Below the pieces are notes generated by a model. The model had not been told where the DNA came from and searched no databases. It was given only the letters and a program-made list of their open reading frames with translations. 38,998 nucleotides of DNA from a virus, in IMG/VR virus record IMGVR_UViG_3300024262_000099, positions 1 through 38,998 of that record, one strand, 5' to 3'. Shown in pieces: positions 9,271 through 28,922 of the stretch. How positions within the stretch are numbered: the stretch's first letter is position 1; every line of letters starts with the position of its first letter. Made by a program: the position numbers and the translations under genes.

Positions 9271-9981
9271 TTAGAATCCGAAACTTTTAGCTTCAGCTTC
9301 CAAACGCTTTACCCTCTCTTGGACATCGTCTTTCGAGATTTTCTCTCTCCAGTCGTCGGCCACAACTTCGCTAGACGCAGAAGATTGACGAGGTGGAGTT
9401 ATCTTTGGTTTGGACTTCGAGAAGTTCACACCAGCGATAGCTCTAGCCTTATCAAGGGCAACGGATTTCTCCAGCCCTCTGTTTCGTAAGTCGAGATATT
9501 CCTGCTTGATAACCTCCTTTTGATCGTCGGTTAAACTAGCGGAATTAAGTTCTTCTCTGAGGTCATTGAATTTTCTTTCATCAGCTTCGGTTTTGAGCCG
9601 AGACTGAAGTTTCTGTTCAATGATAGTCTCAACATCGAGTTCCTCAACCTTGTTCTCAAGGTCAAGCTGTTTCTCGACGTGTTTACGAATCCAAGATTGC
9701 TTGTCTGGTATATCTTCTAGGGACTTTTCCCCAGTAGATACTTTGTTATACCAGGCATCAATCTGTTTCTGCCTAGCCTCTTTTTGAGAGGATGTACTCT
9801 TAGGCTCTTTGAGCTCAAGAGCTTCTTTGCTTTCTTCACCATCTAAGTCGTCTAGTGATTCAGTTTTGCCGTCCTGATCACCGTCCTCATTGGAGGTGGT
9901 ACTTGCAGGCTGTGAGCCGCCTTCACTTTCGGATGTGGCAAAGAGTTCATCATCCGTCGTGGATTGGTCTTCATCAGACAT
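9271..9981 (-). CDS. Capsid scaffold protein
   Basis: 236 residues, extremely polar. The first 65 are Asp/Glu/Ser-rich ('MSDEDQSTTDDELFATSESEGG'). The rest is predicted coiled coil ('RKHVEKQLDLENKVEELDVETIIEQKL..'), ending in a helical 'DDWREKISKDDVQERVKRLEAEAKSFGF'. Its position immediately before the coat gene and its helical, charged composition fit a scaffolding protein that guides procapsid assembly. No protease is encoded nearby, so it is probably released rather than cleaved. Confidence 0.8.
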   Translation of the reverse strand: MSDEDQSTTDDELFATSESEGGSQPASTTSNEDGDQDGKTESLDDLDGEESKEALELKEPKSTSSQKEARQKQIDAWYNKVSTGEKSLEDIPDKQSWIRKHVEKQLDLENKVEELDVETIIEQKLQSRLKTEADERKFNDLREELNSASLTDDQKEVIKQEYLDLRNRGLEKSVALDKARAIAGVNFSKSKPKITPPRQSSASSEVVADDWREKISKDDVQERVKRLEAEAKSFGF

Positions 9982-10317: not shown

Positions 10318-12080
10318 ATTACGGGTTCCTGCTCAGCTTTACGGGGATTAATAGTCATTCTATCTGTACTAGTTCCCTGTGGAGCGGTGGCTTCCTCAGG
10401 GGTAGCCTGTCCTTGTGGAGCTTGTTGTTGTTGGGCAGGCATCATAAAATCTTCTCCAGGAATATCTAAATCATGGAGTTGTGCGAATTGTCCTGACAGT
10501 CTTTGTTGTGCTTTTGTTCCAGGAGCTGCGATTGAAAGTCCTCTAGCAATTTGAGCTGAACGCAGTACGTTACTTGGTATTGCACCACTTCTTGCATTAA
10601 TGCGAATAAAATATTTGTTCTTCTTTAGCTCGTCACTCACCATCCCCATTGTGATTCCATCAGGTACAACGTCTTCTCCGTTGTCTAATCTGATAGTAGT
10701 TGATAGATTTACAGGAGTCTTGTTATTCTTAGTGATATACTCCTTAATCATGTCGATAGTTAGTTCGACAGCGAATTTACTCTCACTGGCGTTGTACTCC
10801 ATAATTTGCTTAACGAGTGCGTTTGCGTTTTCTTCCTCCGCTAGAATCTGTGTAGCGGTAATATTTCCTTGACGATCAATTTCATCAAGTGGGATTCCCA
10901 TACGTTTGATTTCTCTATCTAGTGTGTCGTAAGCAAGTTGCCATTCGTTGACTAAATTCTGTGTGACAAGTGACTGTGAGCTTACTGACTGTGGACTCAT
11001 TGGGTCGTATTCCATAGCTACATATCCTTTTTTACCACTAGCTCTCATTTCATGAGCGAGAGAGAGTTTGTTGAAGAACTTACTAGCTTCGCCCTGTGGA
11101 ATGTTGACAAGTTCAATCGGATAGGTGTTGTCTTCGATGTGAGCCACTTCCATATTCAGAAGTCTACGGCTGATAATCGCTAGGTCGTAAATCATTGAAC
11201 CAATACCGAAATTGTAGAATCCTTCAGAAGAAGGCCAGCAAATGTATTGCAGAATCGGAATATATGGCTCTTTGTTCATCTCAAACGGATAATCTCCTTT
11301 CTCGTGTTTCTCAAGAATAGTACAAGATGGTCCTGCAAATACAGTGTAGTTCGGATAGTTGATGTCGTAGAAGTGAGCAACCTCGATGAGTTCGTCCTCT
11401 AGTTTGTACTTAAAGTCCTTTTGTCTTTCAAGTTCTTCGTTGGTAGATAGCTCTCTTGGTATCCGACCGAGGTCAACTTTATCTTTGAACTCAGGGTACA
11501 TAGACACAAACTCAGGCCAACTGTAACTGAAAATAGCCACCAGCTTTGTAGCATTCCTGCCCCATCCCTGGGCTCTGATAGCAGTTGCAAAATTATCGAC
11601 GTAGATATTTGTGTTGGAAAGAGGATTGAACAGAATCGGTGGACCCTGTTCGGGATTGGCTCCTACATACATAAAAGCGTCTCCATACATCAGAAGATTA
11701 TAAAAAGCTCCTCCTTTGTTTCGGAGAGCTTCAGCATATCCTCCATCATCCATAGTTGTCCAAATTGCATCAGCAACTACTCTCTCGATTGATTCTGGTC
11801 TTCCTACTCCTTGAACCGTAAAATCAAGCGGTTTCATCCGAGAGGCCATTCGCCAAATAGCCTGGTAGAGTTTCTTAGAGGTAATCTTACGATTGCCTGT
11901 TGGATTTCTCACCTCAAAACCATTTGTGAATAACTGCTGAATGTCCTTATTGATTCTATCTTGCTCGTTTTTAATATCCCAGTTACGAGAAATAACCTCG
12001 AGCGCAGTTGATACAGCTTTATCATCTCGATTATCAATTCCCACCATGGATTTTGGTGGATCTAACGTAAGAGTTCCCAT
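10314..12080 (-). CDS. Portal protein
   Basis: 588 residues, the usual size for P22/T7-type portals. Portals form the twelve-fold ring through which DNA enters and leaves the head. Supporting features are the place between terminase and scaffold, the helical 'KKLYQAIWRMASRMKPLDFTV' N-terminal region, and 'NFGIGSMIYDLAIISRRLLNMEVAHIEDNTY'. The long C-terminal helix 'ATQILAEEENANALVKQIMEYNASESKFAVELTIDMI' is the crown/barrel hallmark. The last 60 residues are a Gln/Pro-rich tail. A TATAAT box lies 24 bases before the start. Confidence 0.88.
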   Translation of the reverse strand: MGTLTLDPPKSMVGIDNRDDKAVSTALEVISRNWDIKNEQDRINKDIQQLFTNGFEVRNPTGNRKITSKKLYQAIWRMASRMKPLDFTVQGVGRPESIERVVADAIWTTMDDGGYAEALRNKGGAFYNLLMYGDAFMYVGANPEQGPPILFNPLSNTNIYVDNFATAIRAQGWGRNATKLVAIFSYSWPEFVSMYPEFKDKVDLGRIPRELSTNEELERQKDFKYKLEDELIEVAHFYDINYPNYTVFAGPSCTILEKHEKGDYPFEMNKEPYIPILQYICWPSSEGFYNFGIGSMIYDLAIISRRLLNMEVAHIEDNTYPIELVNIPQGEASKFFNKLSLAHEMRASGKKGYVAMEYDPMSPQSVSSQSLVTQNLVNEWQLAYDTLDREIKRMGIPLDEIDRQGNITATQILAEEENANALVKQIMEYNASESKFAVELTIDMIKEYITKNNKTPVNLSTTIRLDNGEDVVPDGITMGMVSDELKKNKYFIRINARSGAIPSNVLRSAQIARGLSIAAPGTKAQQRLSGQFAQLHDLDIPGEDFMMPAQQQQAPQGQATPEEATAPQGTSTDRMTINPRKAEQEPVI

Positions 12081-15603: not shown

Positions 15604-15733
15604 TGGTTTTGAAGTTAGATATTATTATTTTCATAGCCTCAGGATTATCCTTGTACCTTTTGAATAACCATGTTTTGGTGCAGATTTTACGCTTCACCAG
15701 TTCAATGTCAGTTTGTAGTACTGTTTTGTTCAT
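15596..15733 (-). CDS. 45-residue basic hypothetical protein
   Basis: MNKTVLQTDIELVKRKICTK then 'TWLFKRYKDNPEAMKIIISNFKTNE'. It is small, basic and helical. The start overlaps the RNase H stop (ATGA), so it is coupled to RNase H translation. Not recognised. Confidence 0.6.
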   Translation of the reverse strand: MNKTVLQTDIELVKRKICTKTWLFKRYKDNPEAMKIIISNFKTNE

Positions 15734-16149
15734 AGTAATTCAATAGACAGCCTATCAGCATAATCATTAAGATAATTTTCACTATGCCCCTTTACCCATT
15801 CAAAGCTCACATCAATCTGCCCCATCAAACCTAGAATATCTTTTATTAGGTCGTAGTTGGCTTTCTTCTGACCCTTTCTACGCTTCTCTATATTCCAAAC
15901 AGTAAGTGAATCAATAGAATAACGACTATCAGAATAAATTAGAACTTCATCATAATCATTTTTAATAGCATAAAGGATTGCTTCTGCTATCGCTGTAAGT
16001 TCACCAGTATTATTCGATTGCTTACCACGAACAAAACCATTGTCTTCTGATATGATTATATCATTCTCAACAACAACATAACCCCAACTAGCCGTTGCCC
16101 AATCTGTGCCATTACCTGTACACGCTCCATCAGTGTAAATCTCTAACAT
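15730..16149 (-). CDS. rnhA: Ribonuclease HI
   Basis: 139 residues, the usual length of a compact RNase HI, which cuts RNA in RNA:DNA hybrids (primers, R-loops). The DEDD catalytic set is intact: D7 in 'IYTDGAC', E50 in 'NNTGELTAI', D74 in 'IYSDSRYSI', and D132 in 'NDYADRLS'. The 'WVKGHSEN' loop with its His is also present. It lies downstream of the structured RNA region and is the first gene of a chain of overlapping genes. No polymerase is encoded, so it would act with host replication enzymes. Confidence 0.93.
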   Translation of the reverse strand: MLEIYTDGACTGNGTDWATASWGYVVVENDIIISEDNGFVRGKQSNNTGELTAIAEAILYAIKNDYDEVLIYSDSRYSIDSLTVWNIEKRRKGQKKANYDLIKDILGLMGQIDVSFEWVKGHSENYLNDYADRLSIELL

Positions 16150-16160
16150 AAATATAAGTA

Positions 16161-16189
16161 TTATTAAGCTTAAAGCTCTCAGGTATCAA
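16161..16189 (-). promoter_or_regulatory. Possible promoter for rnhA
   Basis: The minus strand shows TTGATA (16189-16184), a 17-base spacer containing the palindrome AGCTTTAAGCT, and TAATAA (16166-16161). The predicted start near 16154 would lie about 5 bases before the RNase H ATG. Both hexamers are imperfect. Confidence 0.35.
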
Positions 16190-16280
16190 GAGTTTTTCCC
16201 TCCCTATGCGATAAGACATAAAGAAAGAAATATCTCTATAACCTGTATTACCCTTTCTCAGGCTTTACATACCAGAACTT

Positions 16281-16532
16281 TATAGTTGCCTATAGGTTCA
16301 CACTCCTGCAAACCGTACACTCTTTTTGGATTACTGGTCACCGATATAAACTAACATAATCCGCACTAGATCACTTGTTTGTTTTCTCGTCAGGTTCTTA
16401 AGCCTGACAAAGGATTATGTATCATCATTCATAACGGGGAGTTGTTATCAGTTCCCTGCTCAGCGTACTTATCACGTCAAGTACCCATAATTCTGAGCTG
16501 TGCTACCCGTTCACCCGATAACTAATGAACGG
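16281..16532 (-). ncRNA. Candidate structured non-coding RNA
   Basis: The gene-free stretch 16150-16645 holds a dense series of stems on the minus strand. In 5'-3' order of that RNA: CCGTTCA/TGAACGG (16532-16507); GCTCAG/CTGAGC (16498-16458) enclosing GTACTT/AAGTAC (16484-16465); ACATAATCC/GGATTATGT (16420-16354) enclosing GTCAGG/CCTGAC (16408-16389); GGTTTGCA/TGTGAACC with wobble pairs (16314-16295); and TATAG-GCAA-CTATA with a GNRA-type loop (16294-16281). Nested stems over 250 nt with no coding frame suggest a functional RNA, bounded upstream by a terminator. The true ends probably lie between 16190 and 16555. I could not match it to group I/II introns, RNase P, tmRNA or other classes. Confidence 0.55.
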
Positions 16533-16552
16533 ACACCTCCACGTTTTTTGTA

Positions 16553-16586
16553 ACAAATAAAAAGAGAAGTCGGCGATTACTTCTCT
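16553..16586 (-). terminator. Rho-independent terminator after rusA
   Basis: On the minus strand AGAGAAGT, an 8-base loop AATCGCCG and ACTTCTCT are followed by TTTTTATTT. The loop's ATCGCC can also pair with GGCGAT about 30 bases upstream, giving a pseudoknot or an alternative fold that might control read-through. It would end the methyltransferase-HNH-RusA transcript ahead of the structured RNA. Confidence 0.7.
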
Positions 16587-16644
16587 AGTCTCAGTTATTA
16601 CCAAGTTATCGCCCAACCAAATAATAACTCCCTTTGTTTTCTGA

Positions 16645-17010
16645 TTACATTTTACACCTCTCAATATATAAGTCAAATGTATTTTCCTTTTGTTCACCAA
16701 TTTCAAAGCAAATCTCCTTGACATAATCAGGATTATCATCTGGAATCAATCCTAGATCAACCATTGCATCGATAGCAAATTTAACACTAGGGTAATTCCC
16801 ATCCAGATCCCTTAGGCATCTTTTGTCTTTATGGTGGAAGACGAAAGTTAGCTTGATCGGGGTTTCAATAGGTTCTTTCTTGTGGCCACACTTCTGCAAT
16901 GCTTCTAGGAAGAACCAACAGAACTCCTGTTTGAGAGCGTTTAGTTTGTGATAGTGGCAGTTCCTATACTGGTTCATGCTAATCGTTCTGGGGATGTCTT
17001 TGATCTTCAT
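16645..17010 (-). CDS. rusA: RusA-family Holliday junction resolvase
   Basis: 121 residues, the usual RusA length. It would cut four-way DNA junctions during recombination or before packaging. The metal-binding acidic pattern is visible: D68 and D70 in 'RCLRDLDGNYPSVKF', D81 in 'AIDAMVDLGLI' and D91-D92 in 'IPDDNPDYV'. The N-terminal 'IPRTISMNQYRNCHYHKLN' is the usual entry strand of the family. It lies 10 bases after the HNH gene in the same operon, and a terminator follows it. Confidence 0.9.
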   Translation of the reverse strand: MKIKDIPRTISMNQYRNCHYHKLNALKQEFCWFFLEALQKCGHKKEPIETPIKLTFVFHHKDKRCLRDLDGNYPSVKFAIDAMVDLGLIPDDNPDYVKEICFEIGEQKENTFDLYIERCKM

Positions 17011-17589: not shown

Positions 17590-17924
17590 AATGTTGTTTC
17601 TTGCATAAATTTTTGAAAACTCAATAAACTCCTGTAAGCGTCTAGCTTTCGTTCTAAGACACCTTTCTTACCTTCAAGCTGATAGTAGACTGTATCTACT
17701 TTAAAAGCCTTCCAGAGGTACTTTTTGTAGCCCTCCGATCCATGAGCTCTCCTTGTTCTCTCCACATCACTGCCCTCAAACTTTTCTTTCTCTAAACTAA
17801 GCACAACTTTCTTGTACTCATCAACATAGTTCTTATCTGCTTTAGCTTTTGCAAATTCATCAACCATCAGATCGAGTTGATCGACTGTCTTGTAGATTTC
17901 ATTTTGAAGCTCTTGGTAGTTCAT
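17586..17924 (-). CDS. Hypothetical helical protein
   Basis: 112 residues, strongly helical and charged ('MNYQELQNEIYKTVDQLDLM'), with 'SDVERTRRAHGSEGYKKYLWKAFKVD' in the middle and 'LERKLDAYRSLLSFQKFMQ' at the end. It is fused into the operon by a TAATG overlap with the methyltransferase stop and an ATGA overlap with the HNH gene. It may be an accessory factor for these DNA enzymes. No family recognised. Confidence 0.7.
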   Translation of the reverse strand: MNYQELQNEIYKTVDQLDLMVDEFAKAKADKNYVDEYKKVVLSLEKEKFEGSDVERTRRAHGSEGYKKYLWKAFKVDTVYYQLEGKKGVLERKLDAYRSLLSFQKFMQETTL

Positions 17925-18526
17925 TAGAATAAAGTTGTTTTAGTAAAGGCTTCTTTGAATATGTGAAGCCCAAGTTGTGGATCAACCATATTTCTAAGAA
18001 TTTTTACTTTATTGTAACCACCACTTATTTTATATTTTGATAAATTATATCCATAAATTGTAGAGTCACTTTTGATATTAGCGTGTTTTCTATCACCATC
18101 GCCAACGAACATAGTCATCTGAAAATTAGTCCAAAATAAGTGTCGATGCATTTCTTTTGCTGGAATTAAGGGTTTGTACCAGGGGATAACATTTTCAACC
18201 ACCCATTTGCCATTAAAATATCCTTCCAAAAATAATATTTCTTCATAGAGTTTAAGATCTGGAAAAATTGGTGGGTTTTGGTGCGTGGCTGCCTTGCGTA
18301 TTCTTGAATGGCTAGGGCAAGGAGGTGAGGCCCATATAAAATCAAACTCCTTAAAGTGGTCTAGTAGATACTGGTGAGCATCTGTAACAATAACAGTATC
18401 ATTAGGGAAGAAGTCCTGATAGATAGCAGCGATTTGTGGGTCGTATTCAACTGCTGTGATCTCATGTTCATCACCCCAAAGTTTACGGTTACCACCGATA
18501 CCTGCGTATAAGTTTAAAATTTTCAT
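17924..18526 (-). CDS. Compact C5-cytosine DNA methyltransferase
   Basis: 200 residues from the ATG at 18526, chosen because it overlaps the stop of the 52-residue gene before it (ATGA) and starts right at motif I 'MKILNLYAGIGGNRKLW'. Motif IV 'WASPPCPSHS' carries the catalytic Cys70, motif VI is 'WVVENVIPWY', and motif X-like 'NMVDPQLGLHIFKEAF' closes the fold. It is about half the usual length and the target-recognition region between motifs VIII and IX is very short. It would methylate phage DNA against host restriction; no cognate nuclease is adjacent except the HNH protein. Confidence 0.9.
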   Translation of the reverse strand: MKILNLYAGIGGNRKLWGDEHEITAVEYDPQIAAIYQDFFPNDTVIVTDAHQYLLDHFKEFDFIWASPPCPSHSRIRKAATHQNPPIFPDLKLYEEILFLEGYFNGKWVVENVIPWYKPLIPAKEMHRHLFWTNFQMTMFVGDGDRKHANIKSDSTIYGYNLSKYKISGGYNKVKILRNMVDPQLGLHIFKEAFTKTTLF

Positions 18527-18681
18527 ACAAATTGGATGTAAGTTCCAGTACAATTATATTTAGTCCAGACGTATAGGTCATTAGAGACGTGTTCACACAT
18601 TTTCTGTTGCAACATATGATCCATATACTTAGATGGAATCCGCATCACTACCTCCTGTGGTTCGATATGTAGTAGTTTCAT
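18523..18681 (-). CDS. 52-residue leader-gene protein of leftward operon
   Basis: MKLLHIEPQEVVMRIPSKYM then 'DHMLQQKMCEHVSNDLYVWTKYNCTGTYIQFV'. It is the first frame after the leftward promoter (about 14 bases from the predicted start of transcription) and its stop overlaps the methyltransferase ATG. It may be a small regulator or a coupling leader. Not recognised. Confidence 0.6.
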   Translation of the reverse strand: MKLLHIEPQEVVMRIPSKYMDHMLQQKMCEHVSNDLYVWTKYNCTGTYIQFV

Positions 18682-28768: not shown

Positions 28769-28796
28769 TTGACATTAAGGTAGTTTTGTGTATAAT
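28769..28796 (+). promoter_or_regulatory. Perfect sigma70 promoter in the late operon, opposite strand
   Basis: TTGACA (28769-28774), a 16-base spacer ending TTGTG, and TATAAT (28791-28796): both hexamers match consensus. Transcription would begin around 28803, exactly at the ATG of the following 39-residue frame. It points against the surrounding late genes and lies in the 193-base gap 28718-28910. Confidence 0.75.
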
Positions 28797-28802
28797 AGTG
28801 GT

Positions 28803-28922
28803 ATGTTAGTTGGAATACTACGACTCATCGGCTTGTTATTACTTTATATTGGTCTTTGGATACTCCATCCATTATTTGGGATCGCAGCTACAATATGGAT
28901 CATCACTGAGCTACTTGACTGA
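28803..28922 (+). CDS. 39-residue two-TM peptide from a leaderless transcript
   Basis: MLVGILRLIGLLLLYIGLWI then 'LHPLFGIAATIWIITELLD'. Almost wholly hydrophobic, with a Pro break suggesting a helical hairpin. It begins seven bases after a perfect TATAAT, so its mRNA would be leaderless, and its last 12 bases overlap the end of the opposite-strand ejection-type gene. Being driven by its own promoter, it could be made in a quiescent or early stage, for instance for superinfection exclusion. No family recognised. Confidence 0.6.
   Translation: MLVGILRLIGLLLLYIGLWILHPLFGIAATIWIITELLD

Follow-up and report, generated by a model that had tools for sequence, protein, structure and literature searches.

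Two adjacent predicted RNA elements, a short kissing-terminator RNA and a candidate large structured RNA, between rusA and rnhA of a tailed phage

Locus and coding potential of the gap

In this work, the non-coding gap between rusA and rnhA was analysed in a tailed phage for which no close database relative exists; the window is the whole 38,998-base virus record. Both genes are read on the minus strand, rusA ending at 16645 and rnhA starting at 16149, and the gap of 16150-16644 between them sits in an operon that continues to the terminase, portal-like and head genes (Table 1). The phage genes in the window lack Shine-Dalgarno sequences, and canonical TTGACA/TATAAT promoters are present elsewhere in the genome. 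A strong promoter of this kind lies at 28769-28911, where it faces the plus strand in a gap of the minus-strand operon and precedes a possible small membrane-protein ORF. At 17924-18553, a short minus-strand ORF resembles a cytosine-specific DNA methylase family over no more than the first 80 residues of the latter and is perhaps split or truncated.

Table 1. Positions of the flanking genes and of the predicted RNA features (window coordinates)
Feature	Position	Strand	Evidence or remark
rusA, RusA-like Holliday junction resolvase, upstream gene	16645-17010	-	PHROG 1682, E 2.6e-17
Sigma-70-like promoter of the short RNA, TTGACT-16-TAAAAT	16649-16676	-	in last codons of rusA
Short two-hairpin RNA, ~90 nt, ending in an intrinsic terminator	16555-16641	-	homologue in L010
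P1 hairpin, AU-rich, AGUUAUUA 16629-16622 / UAAUAACU 16600-16593	16593-16629	-	8/8 pairs kept in both phages
Loop-loop (kissing) helix, GGCGAU 16613-16608 / AUCGCC 16577-16572	16572-16613	-	P1 loop with terminator loop
Terminator hairpin AGAGAAGU/ACUUCUCU, T-run 16562-16555	16563-16586	-	8/8 pairs kept
Large structured RNA, ~358 nt; possible closing helix AGGUGU 16538-16533 / AUACCU 16186-16181	16181-16538	-	z -4.5 for the region
Hairpin a, CCGUUCA/UGAACGG, loop UUAGUUAUCGGG	16507-16532	-	pair probability 1.0
Nested hairpin b, GCUCAG/CUGAGC around GUACUU/AAGUAC	16458-16498	-	pair probability 0.32-0.37; competing pairings
Hairpin c, GGGA/UCCC, loop CUGAUAAC	16437-16456	-	stem weakly predicted (pair probability 0.14)
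Nested hairpin d, ACAUAAUCC/GGAUUAUGU around GUCAGG/CCUGAC	16354-16420	-	pair probability 0.56
Alternative long-range helix, 16418-16400 / 16265-16247	16247-16418	-	pair probability 0.44; excludes hairpin d
Hairpins e (GGUUUGCA/UGUGAACC) and f (UAUAG-GCAA-CUAUA, GNRA loop)	16281-16314	-	pair probability 0.99 and 0.47
Hairpin g, 15 bp, five G-U pairs	16195-16230	-	-14.4 kcal/mol, pair probability 1.0
rnhA, RNase H, downstream gene	15730-16149	-	Pfam RNase_H, E 8e-24

An earlier note on this DNA had described about 490 bases without a credible gene, and this was confirmed, since no ORF at 16150-16644 matched PHROG or Pfam in any of the six frames. The gap is not a recognisable gene remnant either, as none of the eight stop-to-stop frames spanning the region had a match in these databases. 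A decayed protein gene might be expected from the gene density of the rest of the genome; it is nonetheless a very improbable origin, because of these empty frames and because the fold is too good for a random remnant, and a search for a relative carrying an intact gene at the matching place found none. Known RNA families were likewise absent: Rfam gave no match to the gap at the gathering threshold and chance matches only up to E 10, no intron family (group I or II) being among them, and the gap does not lie inside a gene. The covariance models of GOLLD and of ROOL had no match at the gathering threshold or at E up to 10, and neither tRNA nor tmRNA was found by ARAGORN or Rfam, the window containing no tRNA. 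By these tests, the gap RNA belongs neither to GOLLD or ROOL nor to the introns or tRNA-like genes. The suggestion that it could be a ribozyme or a packaging-type RNA found nothing in its favour, with introns and other Rfam families absent; both assignments are unsupported, as is membership in GOLLD or ROOL.

The minus strand of 16150-16644 folds to -144 kcal/mol (z -4.49, 0 of 100 dinucleotide shuffles as good), better than the plus strand (z -3.0), which bears out the strong minus-strand structure that had been noticed. Among the 258 windows of 300 nt scanned along the genome, 16350-16649 placed among the five best on each strand. However, the strongest fold of the genome relative to shuffles belongs to a coding stretch, 9450-9749 on the minus strand within the ORF 9271-9981, which reached z -6.7 in the same scan. 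The energy of the gap is thus unusual and not unique, and energy alone is no proof of function. Of the claim of one new non-coding RNA, the non-coding character, the strand and the lack of an Rfam family stood, and the single RNA did not: the gap is two adjacent RNA elements, at 16676-16555 and 16538-16181 on the minus strand.

The short element and its relative

The predicted promoter, stems and loop pairing of the short element are supported by sequence comparison with L010, a terminase relative whose large terminase is 58% identical. The homologue of the short RNA lies at L010:10881-10968 (76% identity, BLAST E 1.4e-9). It belongs to a promoter-to-T-run unit (10837-10968) that aligns nearly without gaps to the window; the homology reaches 16685, and the L010 promoter, TTGACA...TAGATT, aligns with that of the window without any gap. 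Both sequences retain all 16 stem pairs, three of which differ on both sides, with one compensatory change in P1 (A-U to G-C) and two in the terminator stem. Moreover, the kissing helix is re-formed with different bases at the matching place (CGGAUAA/UUGUCCG), a pairing read by hand, because at this spot the alignment is shifted by one base and misses the helix. With the loops shuffled, the loop pairing had p values of 0.009 and 0.008 singly and of 1e-4 jointly. The column shuffle of the two-sequence alignment (66/500) is weak by itself, and the covariation evidence covers two sequences and the short element only. The terminator with a pseudoknot-capable loop, which had been placed ahead of the structured interval, therefore holds up in its pairing through the compensatory changes in the relative, and not in its position, which is inside the interval.

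The covariance model R2, built from both sequences, recovered just that pair across 876 kb of sequence from terminase relatives and yielded no third member in 46 whole records. A relaxed short-element pattern had no match in IMG/VR that R2 accepts, and a stricter one had none in 84,980 genomes. The matches in L017-L033 and L125-L134 were rejected as chance, with no terminator or kissing seen by eye, and L125-L134, additionally run through R2, gave no match. In L010 the unit stands between the head genes and some short ORFs, with no large RNA after it. Thus, the short element is a unit of its own, and it may move as a module.

The large element

The stems named in the earlier note were all found at their places, including the nested GCTCAG/CTGAGC (16498-16493/16463-16458) around GTACTT/AAGTAC, ACATAATCC/GGATTATGT (16420-16412/16362-16354) around GTCAGG/CCTGAC, and the GNRA-type loop GCAA on TATAG/CTATA (16294-16281). 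With these local stems enforced, the closing helix AGGUGU/AUACCU forms unasked and gives a 358-nt domain of -110.6 kcal/mol, against a free minimum of -117.4 kcal/mol; at least one other conformation of near-equal energy therefore exists beside these stems. Part of the free minimum is the long-range helix, with 19-nt arms that are 84% complementary. In addition, the loop of hairpin c could pair over 8 bp with loop a (GUUAUCGG; p 0.0026, one among several pairs tried). The closing domain, the alternation of hairpin d with the long-range helix and the a-c loop pairing are computed possibilities only. Two further candidates were discarded: the P1 strand 16632-16621 is complementary to 16448-16437 of hairpin c, but within chance, and the k-mer counts of the repeated GATAA/TTATC loop motifs are not exceptional.

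The whole gap might be read as one large, ornate RNA acting in trans, with GOLLD/ROOL-like kissing loops within or between copies. The many hairpins, the GNRA loop and the location in a phage would suit such an RNA, as would the palindromic loop CUUAAG on hairpin d and the 8-bp complementarity of loop a both to loop c and to loop T1 (p 0.005), although these complementarities were picked among several pairs tried. We consider this unlikely, because the short element is separate, having its own promoter and terminator and occurring in L010 by itself, while GOLLD and ROOL are unmatched at any threshold and a nearby tRNA is absent.

The large part could also be a purely cis-acting switch in the rnhA leader, its two states being hairpin d and the long-range helix. 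The two partner sets lie on the same strand with near-equal pair probabilities, and the fold ends ~30 nt ahead of the rnhA start codon. On the other hand, the complementarity of the long-range arms barely exceeds what chance would give (~0.02 for the region by our own estimate), no homologue shows both states, and transcription from a promoter candidate within the 3' end could skip the leader, which leaves this switch a doubtful alternative. That candidate, TTGATA-18-AATAAT at 16189-16160, is what remains of the proposed rnhA promoter: it exists, but fits the consensus weakly, and sites like it occur at roughly background frequency. Bacteroidota-type promoters (TTG...TAnnTTTG) showed no excess.

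No homologue of the large RNA was found by blastn in 50,697 phages and 72,556 plasmids, nor in the IMG/VR terminase relatives by blastn, nhmmer and whole-contig searches. Being without homologues, the large RNA is a candidate only. Its orphan status, the comparable outlier in coding DNA of the same genome and the inverted repeats that fold on both strands would fit a stretch without RNA function, either neutral or working at the DNA level (inverted repeats, a replication or packaging site). Such an explanation seems rather improbable, since the minus strand folds better than the plus, tandem repeats or iterons were not found, and the cumulative GC skew turns near 18,000 and not at the gap. Furthermore, the five G-U pairs of hairpin g exist on the minus strand only, which points to an RNA read from that strand and gives no DNA cruciform.

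In the terminase relative L034, an 824-nt non-coding structured stretch lies upstream of the terminase. L034:640-1100 shares with the window an ordered chain of short words that scored above 1000 shuffles and 4000 pieces of real sequence but ranked only 5th among 19,768 windows. By local alignment it ranked 480th of 11,877 or worse, and a home-made structure alignment, run without shuffle or positive controls, gave no excess (residual z -0.09). As these local-alignment and structure-alignment controls did not single it out, its homology is unproven; a word pattern derived from it matches L034 alone in IMG/VR and is not independent evidence.

Other features were noticed among the terminase relatives. 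L034:390-596 and L008:5241-5505 have another structured non-coding element in common (nhmmer E ~1e-12), with an apparent tRNA-Leu-type D arm and T arm on an extended acceptor stem, for which ARAGORN and Rfam make no call. A strongly structured gap upstream of the terminase on the plus strand of L036 (7160-7537, z about -4 to -5.6) lies between divergent genes and carries a long hairpin followed by a T-run. Large terminase genes are interrupted in frame in L015 (8897-11176), L012 and L034 (2000-4066); the L034 insert, which starts with CFCRHTKIFTKRGNI... and ends with ...VLVSNC, looks like an intein. In L067, L068 and L069, genes are open only when TGA is read as an amino acid, and in the L067 terminase 10 of the 14 aligned TGA codons face glycine. 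TGA encodes glycine in the Gracilibacteria/Absconditabacteria code, which suggests that some members of the phage group infect bacteria of this type.

Proposed function and comparison with known systems

We hypothesize that the short element is a small RNA or attenuator and that a large functional phage RNA is made after it by read-through, a reading to which we give about an even chance. The promoter at the end of rusA would start the ~90-nt RNA, read leftward, in which P1 and the terminator hairpin would join loop to loop, and this pairing may steady or tune the terminator. The product could act as an attenuator, which would set how much transcription passes toward rnhA, the terminase and the head genes, or be a small free RNA of the phage; the attenuator hallmarks, namely a promoter, an upstream hairpin and a terminator hairpin with a T-run, are present. 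Transcripts that pass the terminator would carry the ~358-nt many-hairpin RNA, which could close into one domain just before rnhA. On the minus strand, nothing promoter-like was found in the stretch between the terminator and the large RNA, whose synthesis is thus most simply explained by read-through. It would follow that the large RNA and the rnhA-terminase genes fall under the control of the short element.

The large part is most likely a functional phage RNA. Its fold and strand are supported by the computed structures, and we infer its function and boundaries: it may serve the rnhA-terminase operon as a structured leader or, if cleaved off, be a non-coding RNA in its own right. A bolder version seems to us improbable, in which the large RNA would be a new compact class of phage RNA, one closed domain working as a two-state switch or by kissing-loop self-assembly and gated by a new kissing-terminator RNA upstream. 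If our hypothesis is right, a little-studied phage group has an RNA unit that runs from promoter to terminator and is held together by its paired loops, so that a terminator is built or tuned in an unusual manner, and it has a new large structured RNA as well.

The short element resembles attenuators and intrinsic terminators with an upstream pseudoknotting hairpin in its short leader, own promoter, hairpin, and terminator stem with T-run. It differs from them in pairing the loop of the first hairpin with the terminator loop and in matching no Rfam family. As for the large RNA, GOLLD is ~800 nt long and often close to tRNA genes. The nanocages formed by the phage RNAs GOLLD and ROOL are partly stabilised by kissing loops, and GOLLD members are often >800 nt, with a conserved 3' region (PMC12286853). 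The large RNA differs from GOLLD in its length of ~358 nt, in the lack of an Rfam match and in having no tRNA nearby; it differs from ROOL in being a single orphan sequence with neither an Rfam match nor a tRNA island. It is like GOLLD in being phage-borne and large, with many hairpins and possible kissing loops, and like ROOL, which is phage- or prophage-borne, in its several predicted kissing loops. By analogy, a GOLLD/ROOL-like working mode, as an RNA-only homo-oligomer, is possible for the large RNA.
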